A stretch of DNA of 64,000 bases from a bacterium EF100-94H03 bin56 (GTDB lineage Bacteria > Pseudomonadota > Alphaproteobacteria > SP197): NCBI GenBank assembly GCA_002238685.1, contig MPMV01000005.1, positions 62,001 through 126,000 on the forward strand, written 5' to 3'. Position numbers and translations under genes: made by a program. Numbering within the stretch: the stretch's first letter is position 1; each line of letters begins with the position of its first letter. The notes beneath the pieces are model-generated. The model saw nothing but the letters and a program-made list of their open reading frames with translations, was not told the DNA's origin and did no database searches. Positions 2 through 21,627 of this stretch are shown one piece after another.

Positions 2-40
2 CGCCAGGCCCATGGCGACGACAAGAACCTAGAACTGTGA
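2..40 (+). CDS. 3' end of an upstream gene (partial)
   Basis: Reading from base 2 the frame stays open for 12 codons and ends in TGA at 38-40, giving a charged C-terminal tail (RQAHGDDKNLEL). The stop lies 11 bases before the ATG of the Rieske oxygenase, which fits a co-transcribed upstream gene cut by the window edge. Nothing about its product can be read from so short a tail, and the open frame could be chance. Confidence 0.3.
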   Translation, partial: RQAHGDDKNLEL

Positions 41-51
41 CGGAGGTCTCC

Positions 52-1170
52 ATGAATTCGTATACGGCGACGGCACTGGGCATCGATATCCGGGAGATTG
101 ACCGCCGACTTGCGGAGAACTGGAGTCTGCCCACCCGGTTCTATTCGGATCCGGAAATCTTCAGTCTCGAGCTTGAGGCGATCTTTGCGCGGCGTTGGCA
201 GTTCTTCTGCCCGCTCCACAGGGTGAAGAATCCCGGAGACGCGGCGGTAAGGCAGGTGGGCCGCTTTCCCGTTGTCGTCGTTCGCGGCCGCGACGGCCGC
301 CTCAACGGATTTCTCAATGTCTGCCGGCACCGGGGCTACACCGTCGTCGACAAGGACAAGCGTTCCTGCGTGCGCCTCGTCTGCCGGTACCACGGTTGGT
401 CCTACAATCTCGACGGTTCGCTGGCTCATGCGCCCGACGCCGCCGGTGACGCCGGGTTCCGTTCCGCAGACCTTGGTCTCAGACGAGTGGCGGTCGACGA
501 GTGGGGCGCCATGGTGCTGGTCCATCCCGACCCCGAGGCGGCACCCCTGCGTGCCACCTATCCCGAGATGTTTCGTACGGCCCGTGAGACCGGATTCGAC
601 ATCGATGCAAACGACTGGATCCCCTACAGGGAGGTCGTCTATGACATCCCCACCAACTGGAAGTTGTGGTACGACAACGGAACCGAGTGCTACCACTGTC
701 CCAACATCCACTCCGCTTCCTTCGGAGATGCCTTCAACGTGGATCCCGAACTGACCACCATCCGGCTGGGTGAAGGGTTCACCTCGTACACCTTCATGAG
801 CAGGAAAGAGAGGTCGTCTAACAATCTGACGGCGAACAATTTCCTGTCCTTTCAGCTATTTCCTGGAATGACCTACATCGTACACGATGATTTCATGCAC
901 ATGACCGGCATGACCCCCCTGGAGCCCGGCCTGACTCGGCACACAGCCTTCTACATGGGGATGAGGGGAGTTGACGAGGAACGGCTCGACGGCTGGTTCA
1001 GGATCTGGGACGACACCTATCGCGAGGACAACGAGGTGACGGCGGTGCAGTACGAGAACCTCAAGTGTGCTCGACAACCCTACAACCGCTATGTCGCCGG
1101 ACGTGAAGCACCGGCACAGCACATGAATGCCATGGTGTGGAAGGACTGCAAGGCAGCCCTGCTCGCCTGA
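52..1170 (+). CDS. Rieske non-heme iron oxygenase, alpha subunit
   Basis: A 372-residue ring-hydroxylating/demethylating oxygenase alpha subunit, the family of GbcA, stachydrine demethylase and CntA. The Rieske [2Fe-2S] ligands are visible as C91-x-H93 and C111-x2-H114 (CRH and CRYH). The mononuclear iron site is in NGTECYHC at about residue 209, with H215 and H220; Glu precedes the Cys where many dioxygenases have the bridging Asp, a change also known in carnitine oxygenase. I chose ATG 52 because GGAGG sits 5 bases upstream; a GTG at 37 is in frame but has no Shine-Dalgarno. It stands next to a 3-hydroxyisobutyrate-dehydrogenase-like gene and converges on a DMGDH/MttB operon, so N-demethylation of a quaternary amine is the likeliest role. 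The substrate is inferred. No reductase partner is adjacent; the flavin reductase at 8.6 kb is not an obvious one. Confidence 0.9.
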   Translation: MNSYTATALGIDIREIDRRLAENWSLPTRFYSDPEIFSLELEAIFARRWQFFCPLHRVKNPGDAAVRQVGRFPVVVVRGRDGRLNGFLNVCRHRGYTVVDKDKRSCVRLVCRYHGWSYNLDGSLAHAPDAAGDAGFRSADLGLRRVAVDEWGAMVLVHPDPEAAPLRATYPEMFRTARETGFDIDANDWIPYREVVYDIPTNWKLWYDNGTECYHCPNIHSASFGDAFNVDPELTTIRLGEGFTSYTFMSRKERSSNNLTANNFLSFQLFPGMTYIVHDDFMHMTGMTPLEPGLTRHTAFYMGMRGVDEERLDGWFRIWDDTYREDNEVTAVQYENLKCARQPYNRYVAGREAPAQHMNAMVWKDCKAALLA

Positions 1171-1252: not shown

Positions 1253-2113
1253 ATGCATGGCACGATCTGCATGGTCGGGTTGGGAACCATGGGCCGTCCC
1301 ATGGCCCGGCGTCTTGGCTCGGCAGGATGCGACGTGACCGGATGGGACAGCGATGCCGAAGCGAGAGAGGGGCTGGCCCTGGCATCCCTCGAGGAGACAG
1401 CGCTCGGGGCCGGCACCGTGATCACCATGCTCCCGGATGGCGGAAGTGTCGCCTCGGTGGTCGAAAGCCTCCTTGAGCAGCGGCAGGATCGCATCTTTCT
1501 CGACTGTTCCTCCATTGATGTGGCCACCACGCGCCGTCTTGCCGGGATGGCGGCAGCGGCGGGCTGCGGATTTGTCGATGCACCGGTGTCGGGCGGCCCC
1601 GAAGGTGCTCGCGACGGAACCCTGAGTTTCATGGTCGGCGGATCGCACGACCACGTCGCCCGCGTCCGGCTCTTGCTCGACATCATGGGAAAACGGATCA
1701 TTCATTTCGGCAAGAGCGGGTCGGGCCAGGCCGCCAAGGCCTGCCATAACATGATCTGCGGCATCACCATGCTTGGTGTTTGCGAGGCCTTCGCCCTGGC
1801 GGAGTCCCTTGATCTCGATGCCCAAAAATTCCTCGAACTGTGCCGCGGAGCCGCGGCACAGAGCTGGATTCTGGACAACCGCTGTCCGGTGCCGGGACTG
1901 GTTCCCGAGGCACCGGCGACCCATGGCTACGCCCCGGGATTTTCCGCACGGCTGATGGCCAAGGATCTTTCTCTCGCCCAGGAGGCGGCATCAACCTCCG
2001 GGCAGACAACTCCTTTCGGCGACGAGGCCGCCCGGCGGTTCGCACGCTTTGCCGCATCCGGACATGGCGACCTCGACATCTCCGCCATCTACCGGGCCAT
2101 CCGTTCTGGGTGA
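1253..2113 (+). CDS. NAD(P)-dependent 3-hydroxyisobutyrate dehydrogenase family protein
   Basis: A 286-residue beta-hydroxyacid dehydrogenase. The N-terminal Rossmann motif GLGTMGRPMARRL starts at residue 8, the substrate-binding stretch DAPVSGGPEGARDGTLSF follows near residue 107, and the catalytic Lys lies in GSGQAAKACHNM. Length and motif order match 3-hydroxyisobutyrate, tartronate-semialdehyde and related reductases; sequence alone does not separate these. A clear AAGGAGG lies upstream of the ATG. It is 82 bases downstream of the Rieske oxygenase on the same strand and probably co-transcribed. Its stop is 2 bases from the stop of the convergent FAD-GcvT gene, leaving no room for a conventional terminator between them. 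Confidence 0.88.
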   Translation: MHGTICMVGLGTMGRPMARRLGSAGCDVTGWDSDAEAREGLALASLEETALGAGTVITMLPDGGSVASVVESLLEQRQDRIFLDCSSIDVATTRRLAGMAAAAGCGFVDAPVSGGPEGARDGTLSFMVGGSHDHVARVRLLLDIMGKRIIHFGKSGSGQAAKACHNMICGITMLGVCEAFALAESLDLDAQKFLELCRGAAAQSWILDNRCPVPGLVPEAPATHGYAPGFSARLMAKDLSLAQEAASTSGQTTPFGDEAARRFARFAASGHGDLDISAIYRAIRSG

Positions 2114-2115
2114 TG

Positions 2116-4521
2116 TCAGGCCTTCAGGCGAGCGTTGCCGGGATCGTAGAAGGGCAGGGGAGCCGGCGCTGCGGGGCAGTCGTTCCCGAGGATCCTGATG
2201 GACCAGACGCCCGAAGACGTGTTGGCCCTGACGTAGCCCAGAGCGAGACGCTTCATCATGCGAAAGCCGGTGCCGGCCGATGTCACGTAGCCGACCGGGA
2301 CGGAATCGAGGAGGATCGGATCACCGGGCAGTGCGTCCGCGTCGCTGTCGGCAATGATGAATCCGGCGAATTGCCAGGTGGATCCGGTCTGGCGCTCGCG
2401 CACCACGGCATCGCGGCCGATGAAGTTCTCCCTGTCGAAGGCAACGAAGCGATCCAGTCCGGCATCGAAGGGAGTGTATTCGATCCCGATGTCGAGCCCC
2501 CAGGCGTGATAACCCTTTTCGAGACGCAGTGAATCAAGGGCCCATGAGCCGAAGTCGACGAGACCGCATTCCCGTCCGGAGTGCCGCAGGGCGTCATGGA
2601 CCGCCCGGAGGTCGGCGGAAGCGAGATGGAGTTCCCAGCCCAGTTCGCCGGCATAGGAGACGCGCAGTGCCGTCGTGGCATGTCCGGCGACCGTGACGGG
2701 GGCCGCGGTGAGCCATGGCATCGCACTGTTCCCGAGGTCGGCATCGGTCACGGTCGCCAGAAGATCGCGTGACAGGGGGCCGGCCAGCATGAGGGTAGCG
2801 TCCTTCGCGCATCCGCGCCTGAGTGTGACACGCCGTCCCGCCGGCAGGGCTTCTCGCAACCAGTCGTGATCACGCTGTTCGGCCAGGGTCGGACCACACA
2901 GGAGGTAGCGGTTCTCGCCCAGGCGAGTGATGGTGGCTTCGCTCCAGATCCTGCCCGATGGAGTGAGCATGTAGGCAAGGCGCGTGCGGAACACTCCCGG
3001 CATCCGGCCACAGAACACCCGCTCCAGGTATCGCGTCGCGTCCGGTCCCTCGACCTCGAACTTGGAGAAACCGCCGTGGTCCATGATGCCCACGCGATCG
3101 CGGACCCCCTCGCATTCACGCCGCACCGCATCACGCCACGGTTCCCGGTCGCGGAAACTCAAGGCGGCATCATCCCTTCTGCCATCGATATCGAACCAGA
3201 AGGCACGCTCCCAGCCACCGATCTCTCCGAATACCGCTCCCCTGGAAGTCAGGAGACGATAGAGGGGCGTTGTCCTCATGGGCCGCGATGAGGAGAGTAG
3301 GCGCCGGGGGTAGGGAATGGCGTACTGCAGGCCATAGACCTCGACCGCTCGTTCGACGGCCATCTTTCTCGTGGCCCAGTCGCCGAAGCGGCGGGGATCC
3401 CAGGCCGCCATGTCCCACTCGGTTTCGCCTTCGCTGATCCACTCCGCGATGGCCTTGCCGGCGGCGGCAGAATGGGTGATGCCGATCTGGATGCCACAGG
3501 CATGGAAGAAGTTCTTCAGACCATAGGCCGGACCGCACAGCGGCAGGGCATCCGGGGCGTAGGCGATGGGGCCATTGACGAAACGCCGGATTCCGGCCTC
3601 CCGAAGCAGCGGAAAATGACCAAGCGCCTTTCCAAAGGCCTCCGCGATATCATCGGGTGACTCGCTGAAGAGCTGGTGGGCGAAGTCCTGTGGCAGTTCG
3701 TCGACGAAGACCGGGCGGCCGGGATGATCATAGGATCCCAACAACACTCCGGCGCCTTCGCGCCTCAGGTAGAACCCGAGCTCGGGATCCCGCACCAGGG
3801 GGAAGGGATCATTCGAGTCCATGAGAGCGCAGAGGGGCTCGGTGACCAGGTACTGATGCTTGAGTGTTGCCACCGGGATGGATTGTCCGGCAAGGCGCGC
3901 CATGGCGCCACCATAGAAGCCGGCGGCATTGACAATCGTCTGCGTGACGACGTCTCCCCTGTCGGTCGTCACCTGCCATTCTCCGCTGCGTGTGGCTGAA
4001 AGGTCCGTGACCCGGGTGAACCGCTCGATTGCTGCACCGGCCTGCCGGGCTTGCCTGGCGAGCGCTTGAGTGAGTTGGGAGGGATCGATGTCCCCCTCAC
4101 CGGGATCGAAAATGCCGCCGATGACATCCGTTCCGGTCGTGTAGTGGGGATGCAGCGCCTCCATCTCGCCAGGCGTGATCATCACGAGATCCACGCCGGC
4201 GGAGGTCGCCAGCCCGGTGAGATGCCGGAAGAGGTCCATGCGGTCCTCGCCGTGCGCCGGCCAGAAAGCGCCGGTATGGTGATAGGTGACGTCTTCGCCA
4301 AGAGCGCCATAGAGACGCCGGGCATAGGCGCCGGCACGCATGCCGAGCCAGCTTGTCGCATAGATCGGGATGTTTCCCGCAGCATGCCAGGTCGAGCCGG
4401 ATGTGAGTTCATCCCTTTCGATCAGCAGGCAGTCAGTGATGCCGGCCTGGGCCAGGTGCCACAGGCAGGACACACCGACAGCGCCGCCGCCGATGACAAC
4501 GACCCGGGCCGATTTCTGCAT
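2116..4521 (-). CDS. FAD-dependent dimethylglycine/sarcosine dehydrogenase-like protein with GcvT domain
   Basis: An 801-residue two-domain enzyme. Residues 1-370 form a DAO-type FAD oxidoreductase: dinucleotide motif VVIGGGAVGVSC at 8-19 and TWHAAG at 44-49, where H46 corresponds to the His that carries covalent FAD in dimethylglycine dehydrogenase. Residues 400-790 are an aminomethyltransferase (GcvT)-like domain that in this family passes the released one-carbon unit to tetrahydrofolate. The length matches dimethylglycine/sarcosine dehydrogenases. It is the last gene of a minus-strand operon after mttB, SRPBCC and racemase genes (3-base gap to the racemase). The expected reaction is oxidative N-demethylation of a secondary or tertiary methylamine; the exact substrate is unknown. 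Confidence 0.88.
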   Translation of the reverse strand: MQKSARVVVIGGGAVGVSCLWHLAQAGITDCLLIERDELTSGSTWHAAGNIPIYATSWLGMRAGAYARRLYGALGEDVTYHHTGAFWPAHGEDRMDLFRHLTGLATSAGVDLVMITPGEMEALHPHYTTGTDVIGGIFDPGEGDIDPSQLTQALARQARQAGAAIERFTRVTDLSATRSGEWQVTTDRGDVVTQTIVNAAGFYGGAMARLAGQSIPVATLKHQYLVTEPLCALMDSNDPFPLVRDPELGFYLRREGAGVLLGSYDHPGRPVFVDELPQDFAHQLFSESPDDIAEAFGKALGHFPLLREAGIRRFVNGPIAYAPDALPLCGPAYGLKNFFHACGIQIGITHSAAAGKAIAEWISEGETEWDMAAWDPRRFGDWATRKMAVERAVEVYGLQYAIPYPRRLLSSSRPMRTTPLYRLLTSRGAVFGEIGGWERAFWFDIDGRRDDAALSFRDREPWRDAVRRECEGVRDRVGIMDHGGFSKFEVEGPDATRYLERVFCGRMPGVFRTRLAYMLTPSGRIWSEATITRLGENRYLLCGPTLAEQRDHDWLREALPAGRRVTLRRGCAKDATLMLAGPLSRDLLATVTDADLGNSAMPWLTAAPVTVAGHATTALRVSYAGELGWELHLASADLRAVHDALRHSGRECGLVDFGSWALDSLRLEKGYHAWGLDIGIEYTPFDAGLDRFVAFDRENFIGRDAVVRERQTGSTWQFAGFIIADSDADALPGDPILLDSVPVGYVTSAGTGFRMMKRLALGYVRANTSSGVWSIRILGNDCPAAPAPLPFYDPGNARLKA

Positions 4522-4524
4522 CGT

Positions 4525-5229
4525 CTAGTGTTCTGCCAGGAGACGACCGAAGCCGTCGATCGGGTCCGTGATCCCGAGATGCCGCAGGGTCTGCCAGTAG
4601 AGGGCCGCGTTGCAGGCCACCACCGGTTTTCCGGTGAGTGCCTCCAGGGAGGCGATGAGGCTGCAGACCGGAAGTGCCGTTCCCACCTGGAGGATGGCGT
4701 CGCAGTCACTGGCGGCGACCTCGCGAAAGGCCGCCTCGATGTCCTCTGGTGGAGTCTCGCAGATTTCCGGCAACGATGGTGCGTCCGTACCGGCCACCGC
4801 CGCCACTGTGAAACCGGCATCTGCCGCATTGCCGGCGACAACCCGACTGGTGTCGGCATCGAAGGGGGTGACGATGGAGATCCTCCTGGCATCGAGGCGC
4901 CGCAGGGCCGTGTGGCAGGCGGTCGACGCATTGAAGACCGGAACGCCCAGTGACGACGCAAGACCGCGGCAGCGTTCCTGGAGTTTCCTGACGCCACCTG
5001 GCCCGGCATCCGTGGTCAGTCCGATCGCCAGGGCTGCCGGGTGACAGTCCATGAGCCTGACGGCCTCGCTGTCGAGATCGTCCGAAATCCGGTCGCCGCC
5101 CAGGCGGAATCTCTGCATCTGGTTTGTCACGCCAGGTGGACGCAGGGATTCGAGCTCCGGCTGCACGACGGTGTTCATCGCCGGTGTCATCACACCGACG
5201 ATGGAGCGATAGCCCAGAGTGTCGGTCAT
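4525..5229 (-). CDS. Maleate cis-trans isomerase / Asp-Glu racemase-like protein
   Basis: A 234-residue protein of the Asp/Glu/hydantoin racemase superfamily, closest in layout to maleate isomerase and arylmalonate decarboxylase. It opens with GYRSIVGVMTPAMNT, has an ILQVGTALPV turn near residue 190, and ends with GKPVVACNAALYWQTLRHLG, typical of maleate isomerases. The N-terminal position where the family normally has a nucleophilic Cys reads IGLTTDAG; other Cys residues occur (ERC, TAC, PVC), so the chemistry may differ. Its start touches the stop of the SRPBCC gene with no gap, so it is translationally coupled. A role in processing a dicarboxylate or malonate-type product of this island is only inference. 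Confidence 0.75.
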   Translation of the reverse strand: MTDTLGYRSIVGVMTPAMNTVVQPELESLRPPGVTNQMQRFRLGGDRISDDLDSEAVRLMDCHPAALAIGLTTDAGPGGVRKLQERCRGLASSLGVPVFNASTACHTALRRLDARRISIVTPFDADTSRVVAGNAADAGFTVAAVAGTDAPSLPEICETPPEDIEAAFREVAASDCDAILQVGTALPVCSLIASLEALTGKPVVACNAALYWQTLRHLGITDPIDGFGRLLAEH

Positions 5230-5667
5230 TCAGCTGTCTTCCATCAGCCAGGCGGCAAGCCCTTTCATCCCATCGCGGTAGATGAGGTCGCCGACGATCG
5301 TTTCCAGCTTCGCTTCATCCTCCCTGGCACAGTCGAAGGTCCCTTCCCAGATGCCAAGTGTCCAGTTGCCTTGCGTGATCGGGATGAAGCGATGGGTGGA
5401 GAGATAGTTGGAGCAGGGCAAGGGCCCTTCGATGATGTCGTAGGTATAGAAATGGTCGACATCGGAGTGCGCCAGGAGCGTTTCGCGAAAGATGGTGCCG
5501 TCGACGACGTCGAGATGTCGCACCGACCCGACCGCAGTCGATGTTCCGGTCTCCATGCGGGCGGCCGAAACAGCCGGGTTCCACGAACCCACACTGTCGA
5601 ATTCCCGGACGGCCGCCCATGTTCTGTCAATGGGCGCCTCGATGATGATGCTGCGAAAGACGTGCAT
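5230..5667 (-). CDS. SRPBCC (START/Bet v1-like) domain protein
   Basis: A 145-residue single-domain protein of the polyketide cyclase/SRPBCC fold. The start MHVFRSIIIEAPIDRTWAAV followed by a Trp-rich first strand region (VGSWNPAVSA) is the usual opening of this fold, and a C-terminal long helix (GDLIYRDGMKGLAAWL) closes it. The fold binds hydrophobic ligands; no catalytic residues can be named. It lies between mttB and the racemase with zero-base junctions on both sides, so the three are surely co-translated. This suggests that it handles the same small molecule, perhaps as a lyase or carrier. Confidence 0.75.
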   Translation of the reverse strand: MHVFRSIIIEAPIDRTWAAVREFDSVGSWNPAVSAARMETGTSTAVGSVRHLDVVDGTIFRETLLAHSDVDHFYTYDIIEGPLPCSNYLSTHRFIPITQGNWTLGIWEGTFDCAREDEAKLETIVGDLIYRDGMKGLAAWLMEDS

Positions 5668-7197
5668 TCACTCGTCTCCAGTCCCTGGAAGTCTGATGGG
5701 GAAGCGCGAGCGGATGGCCTGATCCGCTGTCGCCTCAAGGTGAGCCGGCGCCGGGTCGCCGGCGATCTTGGTGACTCTGGATCTTGCCCTTTCCCAAATT
5801 GATTCAGGACCGGATTCGATCCACTCGTGGACGCCGCGCCTGTCCCCCAGGCACGGGTAGACATATTCGCTTTTCATGAGCGCAAGTGTCTGCGGTTCGC
5901 CAAGGTAGTGGCCATCGCCGCAGACAACGCGCTCCATGGCGTCAAGATCGATGGCCTCCGGCGTAACGTCAACGCCGCGAACCGAACGCAGGATGGCGCC
6001 CAGCATCTCGTCGTCGATGACAAGGGCCTCCGGAGAGGCCACCGTGATGGATCCCAGCATGCCTACGGAAAGGTTGATCATGTCTGCCCCCGCGTGAGCC
6101 GCCAGGGCAATGGTATAGGCCTTCTCGTACCCGGCCTGGACATCCGCCTCCTTGGAGTCGGTCATGCCGGCGGCGACGGTGGATGGCAGCTGAAGGTGGC
6201 GCAGGAGCTGTGCCGCTGCGGCATTCGCAATGGCCGATTCGCCGCCTCCACCACTCATGGCGCCGGTTCTCAGATCGGATATGAATGGCATGAAGGCATG
6301 GATGGCGTGGTGGCCGGGCTTGAGGAGGTCCACCACCATGAGGCCGGCGAGAGTCTCTGCGAGGCCCTGGGCGAGGGCGCCCGCGAGCGTGACGGGGCTG
6401 GTGGCGCCCGCCTGACCCGCCGAACATGTCTGCAGCGGCATGCCTTCGGCAATGGCGGCACGCATGATGTCGACGCCATCGGGCGCATAGCGAAGTGGTG
6501 AGACGGCATGCACCACAACTGCCATGCAGAAGGGTTGCCGGTGAAAGCCGCCTTCAGTTTCAAGCGCGCGGTCGAACATGGACACCACCGGGGCGACGTG
6601 CGCGGCATGGGCGAACGACGTGCCGATGGGCTTGCTCGTTCCGGCAAGGCAGGCGTAGGCGGTGTTGATGTCGAGTTCGAAGGTGTCGGTCATGTCCCGT
6701 GCCACCAGGGGACGGATGCCGTAGTGCACGTTGGGGCACGCATCGACCACCCGCATGATGGAAAGGAGGTCGTGAAGCGTGGAGTCGCGATAGCGACCGG
6801 TTGCGGCATCGAGCACGTCGATGGCAGCGCCACCGGTACCGGTATGGACCAGACCGGAACCCGCATCGATACCCCTGTCCTCGACAAAGCCCGGCACGGC
6901 CACGCTCCTGGCTGCCCGCGCCAGCGCCTTCTCGACTCGCGGTCGTGGAAAGAGAAGGCGGCCGTCCCCGCGTCGCCTGGCGCCATCATCGCTTGCCAAC
7001 CGGATGAACCAGTCCGGAGCCGATGCCATGCCGATCCGCTCGAGAATGGAAAAGGCGTTATCGATGATCGTGTCGCGGGACGTGTCATCGAGTGGCGAGA
7101 ACCGGCCACCCCATTCCCTGCGGGGAACGGTTGCCGGGAGACTGGCCGATCTTCGGGAATTCGACCGCGCCACTCTCTGGTTGTCAGACCGGCTCAT
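5668..7197 (-). CDS. Trimethylamine methyltransferase (MttB) family protein, non-pyrrolysine type
   Basis: A 509-residue MttB-superfamily protein with the family's central barrel sequences (TGTGGAAIDVLDAATG, GGGGESAIANAAAAQLLRH, DMINLSVGMLGS). The frame is uninterrupted with no internal TAG, so it belongs to the non-pyrrolysine branch; characterised members demethylate glycine betaine, proline betaine or carnitine and pass the methyl group to a corrinoid protein. No corrinoid protein or its activator is visible nearby. It is the first gene of the four-gene minus-strand operon. The first ~35 residues are basic and Ser/Arg-rich and probably disordered; a later start is possible. Confidence 0.88.
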   Translation of the reverse strand: MSRSDNQRVARSNSRRSASLPATVPRREWGGRFSPLDDTSRDTIIDNAFSILERIGMASAPDWFIRLASDDGARRRGDGRLLFPRPRVEKALARAARSVAVPGFVEDRGIDAGSGLVHTGTGGAAIDVLDAATGRYRDSTLHDLLSIMRVVDACPNVHYGIRPLVARDMTDTFELDINTAYACLAGTSKPIGTSFAHAAHVAPVVSMFDRALETEGGFHRQPFCMAVVVHAVSPLRYAPDGVDIMRAAIAEGMPLQTCSAGQAGATSPVTLAGALAQGLAETLAGLMVVDLLKPGHHAIHAFMPFISDLRTGAMSGGGGESAIANAAAAQLLRHLQLPSTVAAGMTDSKEADVQAGYEKAYTIALAAHAGADMINLSVGMLGSITVASPEALVIDDEMLGAILRSVRGVDVTPEAIDLDAMERVVCGDGHYLGEPQTLALMKSEYVYPCLGDRRGVHEWIESGPESIWERARSRVTKIAGDPAPAHLEATADQAIRSRFPIRLPGTGDE

Positions 7198-7569: not shown

Positions 7570-8460
7570 ATGGGTCGACAGTTGTGGCTGACAGCCTGCC
7601 TGCTCTACATCGGTATCGCCTGGGGCCTGGTGCCGAGTCTGGCGCGTCTGGCCACCAGCGAGGGGGCGGACGCTCTCAATGCGACGTTCCTGCAATCCCT
7701 GGTGGGAGGAGTCGTGCTGCTGGCCCTGACGCTTGTACGCGGCAAGAGGTTTCACCTGTCGTGGCGTCACCTGTGGTTCTACACGGTGTGCGGCTTCGCC
7801 GGGACCACGATCCCGACAGCCATCGTTTTCGCTGCCGCTCCCGAGGTCGGGGCCGGCATGATCGCCATCATCATCGCGCTCGCACCGATCCTCACCTATT
7901 TCGGCGCTCTCGTTCTCGGACTTGAGCCGCACGGCTTCTGGCGTCTTGCCGGCATTGGCCTGGGCTTTGCCGCCGTGCTTCTCATCGTTCTCCCGGATCT
8001 CGAGATCGAGGTGGGGTCCCTGACCGCATGGCTCCTCATTACCTTGTTCATTCCAATCTGTTATGCCATTGAAAGCCTGATCATTGCTCTCAGACGACCC
8101 CCCGAAGGCGATGCCATGATGCTGGTGGCGGGCATGCTGCTTTCGAGCGCACTGGTCCTGTTGCCGGTGGTCCTCCTTGGCGGCGCAGCGAACGACATCC
8201 TGCCAGGGTGGGACACGGCATCGATCGCCGTGGGCAGCATCGCTGCCATCAATGTGACTGCCTACGTCATCTTTCTCTACCTGATTTCGGCTGCTGGCCC
8301 GGTCTTCGCGACGTTCGCCGGCTACCTCAACATGGTGGCCGGCGTGATCTGGGGTATCGTTCTGTGGCAGGAAAGCCATTCATCATGGGTCTGGGGCGCG
8401 GTCGTCCTGCTGGCGGTGGCGATGTATCTCGTCAGCGAACGCAGGCCTCGGGGGACGTGA
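7570..8460 (+). CDS. EamA/DMT-family transporter
   Basis: A 296-residue integral membrane protein of the drug/metabolite transporter superfamily with about ten hydrophobic segments and the internal duplication of two EamA repeats. Marks include the N-terminal helix LWLTACLLYIGIAWGLVPSL, the APILTYFGALVLG helix closing the first repeat and the final helix before the RRPRGT tail. The open frame extends back to 6508, but the upstream part is antisense to mttB. ATG 7570 fits the family length, with a GAAGAG about 11 bases upstream; a GTG at 7552 is an alternative. It probably exports an amino acid or similar metabolite; the substrate cannot be read. Confidence 0.85.
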   Translation: MGRQLWLTACLLYIGIAWGLVPSLARLATSEGADALNATFLQSLVGGVVLLALTLVRGKRFHLSWRHLWFYTVCGFAGTTIPTAIVFAAAPEVGAGMIAIIIALAPILTYFGALVLGLEPHGFWRLAGIGLGFAAVLLIVLPDLEIEVGSLTAWLLITLFIPICYAIESLIIALRRPPEGDAMMLVAGMLLSSALVLLPVVLLGGAANDILPGWDTASIAVGSIAAINVTAYVIFLYLISAAGPVFATFAGYLNMVAGVIWGIVLWQESHSSWVWGAVVLLAVAMYLVSERRPRGT

Positions 8461-18506: not shown

Positions 18507-19400
18507 ATGAGTGTCGACACCATCACGACGGTCGATCCCGATACGTCGAGCGAAGAGATCGGCGCCATTCTCGAGCGCGATGGCTGCATCATCGTCAGGG
18601 ACGCCATCGATCACGCGACGATTGACGCCCTCCTCGGGGATCTCGATCCCTATCTCCAGCGCAAGCCCTGCGGCAACGGCAACTTTGTCGGTTACCAGAC
18701 AAAACGCCTGCATTCACTCTTCGGAAAGTCTCGGCGGGTCCAGGACTTTGTCCTCCACGAGCGGGTGCTTGACATCATGGACCTGACTCTGTTGCCGTGG
18801 TGCGAGAACTACCAGCTCAACTCGAATTCGATCACGGCGATCGGGCCGGACGAGACACCGCAACCGCTGCATCGCGACGATTTGCTCTATCCCCTTGCCC
18901 ATCCCAGCGAACGCAACGCGACATCCACTGTCTTCTGGGCCCTGTCCGATTTCCGGGAAGAAAATGGCGCCACGCGAATCATCCCCGGAAGCCACAAGTG
19001 GGACGATCACAGGGTGCCGCGGGACGAAGAGACCTGCGCCGCGATCATGACGAAGGGGTCGTTCTGCGTCTTTGTCGGCGGCGTCTATCACGGTGGAGGG
19101 CGTAATCTCACACCCGATGTCTGGCGCATCGGCATGTTCACGGGCTTCACCCTTGGCTGGTTGCGCCAGGAACAGAACTGGTATCTTTCCGTGACGCCGG
19201 AAGAGGTGAGGGAAATGCCCGAGAGGCTGGCGCGCTTGCTCGGCTTCAACATTCACCGGCCATTCCTCGGCTGGGTCCAGGACTTCCAGGATCCCTACGA
19301 CGTCATCAGGGGCTATGAGGAACTGTCGTCCGGTGGCAATGATCTTTACGCCGAGGGCGCTACAAGGCCGGTGCCGGGAACCGGCGTCAGGGTTGCGTGA
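18507..19400 (+). CDS. Phytanoyl-CoA dioxygenase family protein
   Basis: A 297-residue Fe(II)/2-oxoglutarate-dependent oxygenase. The iron triad is seen as H122-x-D124 in PLHRDD and H195 in GGVYHGGGRN, with R199 available for 2-oxoglutarate. The N-terminal ILERDGCIIVRDAI and central ENGATRIIPGSHKW are standard for PhyH/ectoine-hydroxylase-like proteins. It hydroxylates an unactivated carbon in an unknown small substrate. Translation starts from a near-perfect ribosome site. A second PhyH-family gene lies 1.4 kb downstream on the other strand, with a toxin-antitoxin pair between them; the two proteins are not close copies. Confidence 0.88.
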   Translation: MSVDTITTVDPDTSSEEIGAILERDGCIIVRDAIDHATIDALLGDLDPYLQRKPCGNGNFVGYQTKRLHSLFGKSRRVQDFVLHERVLDIMDLTLLPWCENYQLNSNSITAIGPDETPQPLHRDDLLYPLAHPSERNATSTVFWALSDFREENGATRIIPGSHKWDDHRVPRDEETCAAIMTKGSFCVFVGGVYHGGGRNLTPDVWRIGMFTGFTLGWLRQEQNWYLSVTPEEVREMPERLARLLGFNIHRPFLGWVQDFQDPYDVIRGYEELSSGGNDLYAEGATRPVPGTGVRVA

Positions 19401-20769: not shown

Positions 20770-21627
20770 TCAGCTGAGATCGGGAAAACTGTCGCGCACG
20801 AAGATCGTGTAGCCCTCGTCGCCGGGGTCCTCAAGATCGATGAGCGGGGTGGACGAGAAGACACCGTCGTAGGCGCCTTGCTCAAGTGAATCGTCAGGAG
20901 CCGTCGTCATCGTCTTGAATGCATGGTGCTTCTGGTCCGGGAACACTGGAGCGTTGCTGATTGCGTTGTATGAGAACTCGAGGAGAATGCGGTTCCAAGG
21001 TGCCCGGTTGTCGCCCGAGGCGTGCACGGTGTTGCAGTGAAAGAAGAGACCGTCGCCAGGTTCGAGTTCGATGGCGACATCCTCGAAACGTTCCAGCATG
21101 GCCCTGGCGCGCAGCGGATGGATGTTGGAGTAGGCGTGATCGTCTCGGATGCGATCAACCCTTCCCATGTGGTGCGAGCCCTTCAGTATGTGGAGACATC
21201 CGCTTTCCTCCGTCGCCCCGGTCAACGCCACGATACAGGTCAGCATGTCCGGCTTCAGGCACCCGTCCTGGTACCAGCCGCCGAAGTCCTGGTGCCAGAC
21301 AACCCGGCCACTGCGTCCAGCCGGTTTCTGGACGATCTTCGAATGGTAATGGTAGACGGGTTCGCCGATCAGGGCCTCGGCGCCGTTCACAATGCGGGCG
21401 AGACGCGTTGCCGTGCCGAGCCAGTCGTCACCATGACGCACCCAGCCAAGGTAGTCGTGCTGCGTCCTCTCGCTGCCATCGTGAATGGTCGCAAGGCGCC
21501 CGCCAATGCCGGGGTCCTCGTTGATCGCCTGGCGAAGCGGTGCCAGTTCCGAATTCGAGAAGAACCCCGGCAGCAGGAGATAGCCATCCCGGTGATATCG
21601 GGCAATGTCGTCGGGAGCGAGTGTCAT
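20770..21627 (-). CDS. Phytanoyl-CoA dioxygenase family protein
   Basis: A 285-residue Fe(II)/2-oxoglutarate oxygenase. The triad is H112-x-D114 in WHQDFGGWYQDG and H202 in NTVHASGDN, with R208 or R213 for 2-oxoglutarate. The start DDIARYHRDGYLLLPGFF and ESGCLHILKGSHHMG are typical of ectoine-hydroxylase-like PhyH proteins. It lies 57 bases downstream of an acyl-CoA ligase gene and in line with a polyamine-type binding protein, so it is probably the last gene of a minus-strand uptake and catabolism operon. The substrate is unknown. Confidence 0.88.
   Translation of the reverse strand: MTLAPDDIARYHRDGYLLLPGFFSNSELAPLRQAINEDPGIGGRLATIHDGSERTQHDYLGWVRHGDDWLGTATRLARIVNGAEALIGEPVYHYHSKIVQKPAGRSGRVVWHQDFGGWYQDGCLKPDMLTCIVALTGATEESGCLHILKGSHHMGRVDRIRDDHAYSNIHPLRARAMLERFEDVAIELEPGDGLFFHCNTVHASGDNRAPWNRILLEFSYNAISNAPVFPDQKHHAFKTMTTAPDDSLEQGAYDGVFSSTPLIDLEDPGDEGYTIFVRDSFPDLS

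Follow-up and report, generated by a model that had tools for sequence, protein, structure and literature searches.

A conserved four-gene cassette built around a divergent MttB-type methyltransferase, a probable new branch of a shared corrinoid hub in an alphaproteobacterium

The stretch of DNA analysed here, hereafter the window, comprises 64,000 nucleotides of the alphaproteobacterium EF100-94H03 bin56 (GCA_002238685.1, contig MPMV01000005.1, positions 62,001 to 126,000). Its minus strand carries a cassette of four genes placed head to tail, in the following order:

5668..7197, minus strand: mttB (PF06253), a non-pyrrolysine methyltransferase of the MttB superfamily belonging to a divergent subfamily
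5230..5667, minus strand: SRPBCC / Polyketide_cyc2 protein of 145 aa (PF10604, 72.7 bits)
4525..5229, minus strand: protein of 234 aa resembling maleate isomerase, arylmalonate decarboxylase and EutA (PF17645; TIGR02990 below cut-off), hereafter the isomerase-like protein
2116..4521, minus strand: DMGDH-GcvT, an FAD dehydrogenase with a tetrahydrofolate domain, of 801 aa (DAO, FAO_M, GCV_T and GCV_T_C), hereafter DMGDH (dimethylglycine dehydrogenase)

Both the open reading frames and the sequence place 0, 0 and 3 bases between these genes (TGA abutting ATG twice, then TAG-acg-ATG), as reported in an earlier note made from the sequence, which also called them fused, while they are simply adjacent.

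The comparison covered 18 loci carrying an ortholog of this MttB, namely the window, L011 (= G009), L012 (= G011), L013-L017, L052-L057, L073, L074, L079 and L080. Among them, L015 is a short contig, and L073 and L074 are near-identical plasmid loci, the second known from its annotation only. The orthologous MttBs at the compared loci are 54-91% identical, and the complete set of four genes occurs at 12 of the 18 loci; the SRPBCC gene stands without the isomerase-like gene at L057, and neither of them was seen at L015, L053, L054, L073 and L074. The named loci are labelled Kiloniellales, Acidiferrobacterales and Ruegeria/Roseovarius and several are metagenome bins, these assignments being by label only. 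Junctions in the relatives are mostly tight, with gaps of 0, 0, 3; 0, 0, 5; -4, 0, 3 (twice); -4, 1, 3; 12, -4, 2; 16, -4, 1; and -1, 19, 3, and a single loose case of 124, 120, 3. This comparative search bears out the conserved, dedicated pathway supposed by the earlier note. In an even sample of 385 genomes of the class, the four genomes with a close ortholog of the isomerase-like protein were exactly the four with a close ortholog of MttB; two of them share the genus of the window, which leaves about three independent cases. The cassette is real, conserved and also rare, since a sample of 398 genomes of the phylum yielded the genome of the window alone. Literature searches on the gene set and on homarine and beta-alanine betaine catabolism found no paper describing it.

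The MttB protein is a clear member of its superfamily, matching PF06253 over residues 8-496 with 296.9 bits against a gathering score of 25; its score with TIGR02369 is 259.6 bits, for a cut-off of 525. A methionine aligns with Pyl334 of MttB and the frame is open, without stops. A pyrrolysine-containing MttB had been hinted at by an Rfam match to PYLIS_3, above threshold at positions 6165-6066 (minus strand) within the mttB coding sequence, and was rejected as the position holds no stop codon; the match seems to detect coding homology. The contacts of glycine betaine in the non-pyrrolysine enzyme MtgB have been named by docking (PMC6855144) and correspond to Y, N, R, H and F at positions 95, 200, 310, 346 and 354 of 9yce, the letters being those of the PDB search output. 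In a MAFFT alignment, G-H-T-L-I or G-H-T-L-L takes the place of Y-N-R-H-F in 17 orthologs, one partial row lacking the first position, and the MttB of the window reads G-H-T-L-I. A pairwise HMMER alignment read by hand is displaced by one residue from MAFFT at 95 and 200 and restores no MtgB letter, the residues across both alignments being G or T, H or A, T, L, and I or L. In the same genome, nine of the 16 other PF06253 paralogs retain N, R and H at 200, 310 and 346 (C18, C48a, C48b, C40, C25a, C25b, C64, C76 and C33), and C67 retains N and R. In the tree, the MttB orthologs form one clade (support 100/99) with paralog C19 as neighbour (96/87), and a very long branch sets the group to which they belong off from the glycine-betaine-like paralogs; the presence and absence of the SRPBCC and isomerase-like genes requires about two changes inside this clade. 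Because of the altered pocket and this long-branch position, the sequence makes it unlikely that the MttB acts as an ordinary glycine betaine demethylase. Within the genome, the MttB of the window shares a divergent group with the paralogs C19, C91 and C42, and C36 looks more divergent still.

The earlier note had pointed out that an MttB-type methyltransferase needs a corrinoid acceptor and that none is encoded. This holds locally, no corrinoid gene being present near the cassette, but not for the genome, where a search for PF02607 retrieved one corrinoid protein, on contig C69, which also matches PF02310. Within about 7 kb, this contig groups the PF02310/PF02607 gene with one of the two PF00809 genes of the genome (pterin-binding methyltransferase) and with its sole RACo_C_ter gene (PF14574, RamA-type activase), so that the corrinoid protein, pterin-binding methyltransferase and activase expected of a corrinoid-dependent system occur together at one locus; other open reading frames there look by eye like MetF and a DUF1638 protein. 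This single set coexists with 17 PF06253 genes distributed over 15 contigs, of which C25 holds a tandem pair, and among 16 genomes of the order each one encodes 10-18 MttBs versus 1-2 PF02607 proteins. According to PMC12478193, from which all statements on Ruegeria pomeroyi below are also drawn, mutants of this bacterium in MtgC and MtgD lose methionine synthesis as well as growth on glycine betaine, and a role in the use of other methylated compounds was proposed for multiple PF06253 genes. From this analysis we infer that the MttB of the window uses the shared, MtgC-type hub. Rfam gave no match to a cobalamin riboswitch in the window or in the hub region. Several other members of the order (G007, G012, G013, G014 and G015 among them) differ from the genome of the window in having a further mttB match whose start lies about 0.3-0.6 kb away from that of PF02607.

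DMGDH shows a full-length match to human DMGDH (5l46, 492 bits) and combines an FAD domain, in which the histidine motif of the covalent flavin (STWHAAG) is kept in alignment with human and rat DMGDH, with folate-binding GcvT domains. That it would take the demethylated product, as previously suggested, is the natural reading. The two middle genes do not fit known betaine pathways, in agreement with the earlier note. The SRPBCC protein is modelled with good confidence (pLDDT 89.5) as a helix-grip fold, with the XoxI-named structures 3cnw and 7tmu as closest solved folds; its likeness to the abscisic acid receptors of plants and to bacterial proteins that are themselves uncharacterised tells little on function. 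The isomerase-like protein aligns with maleate isomerases of the PDB and shares their fold, the match being at fold level only given its mediocre model (pLDDT 68.7), and its score with EutA (TIGR02990) is 79.8 bits for a curated cut-off of 318. Cys76 and Cys194 of maleate isomerase are replaced by Gly70 and Gly183, invariant in 12 orthologs. The label of racemase given by the earlier note is doubtful because both catalytic cysteine positions are glycine, and for the same reason a racemase, maleate isomerase or arylmalonate decarboxylase working by the known cysteine mechanism was discarded.

Three further genes flank the cassette:

1253..2113, plus strand: HIBADH-like protein (3-hydroxyisobutyrate dehydrogenase; TIGR01692, 281.6 bits against a cut-off of 291.6)
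37..1170, plus strand: Rieske oxygenase (PF00355 and PF00848)
7570..8460, plus strand: EamA-type transporter (PF00892), divergent from mttB, with a likely start at 7570; at most a candidate part of the pathway

The Rieske gene does not face the operon, as had been written; it and the HIBADH gene converge on it tail to tail, 2 bp separating the stop codons of HIBADH and DMGDH. The HIBADH score extends over the full length, the next family reaching 155.2 bits, and such a gene is found near the MttB-DMGDH genes at most related loci. The Rieske gene accompanies the cassette in the three closest genomes only (85-88% identity in the two nearest) and is absent near the cassette at all the other, more distant cassette loci, a distribution for which it was rejected as a core gene and is treated as a neighbouring unit, probably outside the core. 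Between these two convergent genes, the better partner for the cassette is HIBADH. The Rieske protein matches the glycine betaine monooxygenase GbcA partially, with 130.8 bits for a curated cut-off of 670. Its gene and that of a 2-oxoglutarate oxygenase share 4 bp, with TRAP genes nearby, as at L049:11058-13171, which suggests that the Rieske gene belongs to a separate unit.

Taken together, we consider it reasonably probable that the four genes act as one module in the catabolism of a quaternary (trimethyl)ammonium compound distinct from glycine betaine, and that this module feeds the common corrinoid hub. The module structure is the part of this explanation in which we are confident. Gene order and conservation, the single corrinoid gene, the changed pocket and the missing cysteine pair are observations; each of the reactions, the substrate being an amine and the recourse to the hub are what we infer. 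MttB would remove one methyl from the quaternary nitrogen and load it onto the Co(I) of the sole MtgC-type corrinoid protein, encoded elsewhere and common to the MttB paralogs, the cobalt of which would be held reduced by RamA. The pterin-binding MtgD would then hand the methyl group to tetrahydrofolate, to be oxidised as a C1 unit; in the opposite direction, this step would serve methionine synthesis. DMGDH-GcvT would oxidatively strip the remaining N-methyl group(s), yielding methylene-tetrahydrofolate, and conversion of the demethylated carbon skeleton may fall to the SRPBCC and isomerase-like proteins together with the HIBADH-type dehydrogenase. This reading is supported by the conservation of the cassette, the corrinoid counts and the hub locus, the Ruegeria precedent, the pocket, the tree and the DMGDH match described above, and also by the cassette loci that adjoin transporters (TRAP, SBP5) and carbon-skeleton enzymes (class III aminotransferase, ALDH, sulfatase). 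Several points weigh against it: the MtgB contact residues come from the published docking (PMC6855144) instead of a ligand-bound structure, and their mapping at low identity could be one residue off; several sister loci are devoid of both the SRPBCC and the isomerase-like gene, whose putative roles derive from association; and in an assembly of 102 contigs, 98.45% complete with 4.2% contamination, another corrinoid gene could be missing.

Of the alternatives, the one that survives best, although unlikely, is that the methyl donor of MttB is something other than a quaternary amine, such as a tertiary amine or a compound with a sulfonium or methoxy group, or that MttB chiefly supplies methyl groups to the hub, DMGDH acting on a related but separate intermediate. 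The loss of the presumed carboxylate-binding arginine and histidine, with no aromatic residues at those pocket positions, would suit such a donor, as would the diversity of the side modules, which include sulfatase, hydantoinase-like and glutamine-synthetase-like genes; however, MttB is constantly accompanied by an N-demethylating DMGDH, and methylated amines are the substrates of those MttB-family members that are described as characterised in the cited papers (PMC8604678, PMC6855144, PMC9842639). Clearly less probable is an ordinary glycine betaine operon, in which MttB would be MtgB, DMGDH would complete the route from dimethylglycine down to glycine, with the SRPBCC and isomerase-like genes as passengers. 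The MttB-DMGDH pair does suit a route from betaine through dimethylglycine to sarcosine, and DMGDH is close to true DMGDH. The corrinoid set that the earlier note had named as its own potential refutation, by explaining MttB as an ordinary betaine demethylase, does exist in the genome, but the pocket, in which no ortholog has any of the five MtgB residues, although some other paralogs encoded by the genome retain the key ones, and the long branch of the MttB group argue against such an enzyme, and the supposed passengers are kept in distant lineages. The model of the earlier note gives the first, aerobic demethylation to the Rieske oxygenase and leaves the product to the operon; it is poorly supported and very improbable: the adjacency of the Rieske gene in three close genomes and its relatedness to betaine and carnitine oxygenases have to be set against its absence from more distant loci, its convergent orientation and the overlap that points to a separate unit, and MttB would be redundant if the Rieske enzyme took the first methyl group. 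Separate functions packed together with no common pathway would fit the variable gene order and the loci missing two genes, but this last alternative is hardly credible in view of the matching distribution of the isomerase-like protein and MttB over the class sample and the tight junctions kept in several lineages.

As a proposed module feeding the hub, the cassette shares several traits with known systems. As in the MtgB-MtgC-MtgD glycine betaine demethylation / split methionine synthase of R. pomeroyi (PMC12478193), it would involve a PF06253 methyltransferase and one shared corrinoid protein; the genes for RamA and the pterin-binding partner lie apart from that of the methyltransferase, and further N-demethylation is expected downstream. 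Unlike R. pomeroyi MtgB, the MttB of the window represents a divergent subfamily with an altered pocket, the conserved SRPBCC, isomerase-like and HIBADH genes are additional, and the genome has 17 PF06253 paralogs compared with the "up to seven" reported there. Desulfitobacterium MtgB (PDB 2qne, 9yce) is likewise a non-pyrrolysine member of the superfamily, but 0/5 of its docked contact residues are kept and the partner in the window is an aerobic-type DMGDH. The numerous MttB paralogs recall Eubacterium limosum, in which those for different quaternary amines, such as MtcB and MtyB, feed the corrinoid protein MtqC (PMC8604678); this organism is an anaerobic acetogen, and the likeness is by description, not by sequence. 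The isomerase-like protein resembles maleate isomerase, arylmalonate decarboxylase and EutA in fold and by a weak sequence match and differs by its two glycines, and DMGDH resembles the mitochondrial enzyme in its full-length domain order and flavin-linkage motif, its substrate here being putative. The cassette probably adds a new branch to a corrinoid hub that is already known. Such branches were suggested in PMC12478193, none of them being assigned to this gene set in its available excerpts. If so, many methylated compounds, and not glycine betaine alone, would generally enter by the shared MtgC hub, and the cassette would be one concrete, testable branch with candidate enzymes of uncharacterised chemistry. 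We propose more tentatively that an undescribed MttB subfamily, with its G-H-T-L-I pocket and frequent SRPBCC and cysteine-free isomerase-like partners, may stand at the head of a new route, aerobic and linked to B12, that acts on a methylated nitrogen compound; the organisms concerned would run 10-18 MttBs via one corrinoid protein also used for methionine.

The surroundings of the cassette vary among loci. The SRPBCC and isomerase-like genes form a divergent pair in Ruegeria, L016 and L017, and the side modules comprise LysR, class III aminotransferase with a DHDPS-like gene, ALDH with a D-glutamate-cyclase-like gene, sulfatase, HyuA-like (hydantoinase-like) and glutamine-synthetase-like genes, and TRAP or SBP5 transporters. 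They single out no one substrate: beta-alanine betaine-like compounds are a weak guess, with little likelihood, and those drawn from the neighbouring genes (carnitine, hydroxyproline betaine, homoserine betaine, and taurine betaine near a plasmid xsc) could not be separated. On the Rhodobacteraceae plasmids L073 and L074, an SBP5-type ABC transporter is followed by the MttB ortholog with two DMGDH genes, then by a TRAP-xsc (sulfoacetaldehyde acetyltransferase) cluster. On a Salipiger plasmid (L089:5044-9886), TRAP genes precede isomerase-like and glutamate-cyclase-like genes, linking two families that alternate at MttB loci. Farther in the window, positions 18507-19400 (plus strand) and 20770-21627 (minus strand) encode what appear by eye to be phytanoyl-CoA-dioxygenase-type oxygenases.

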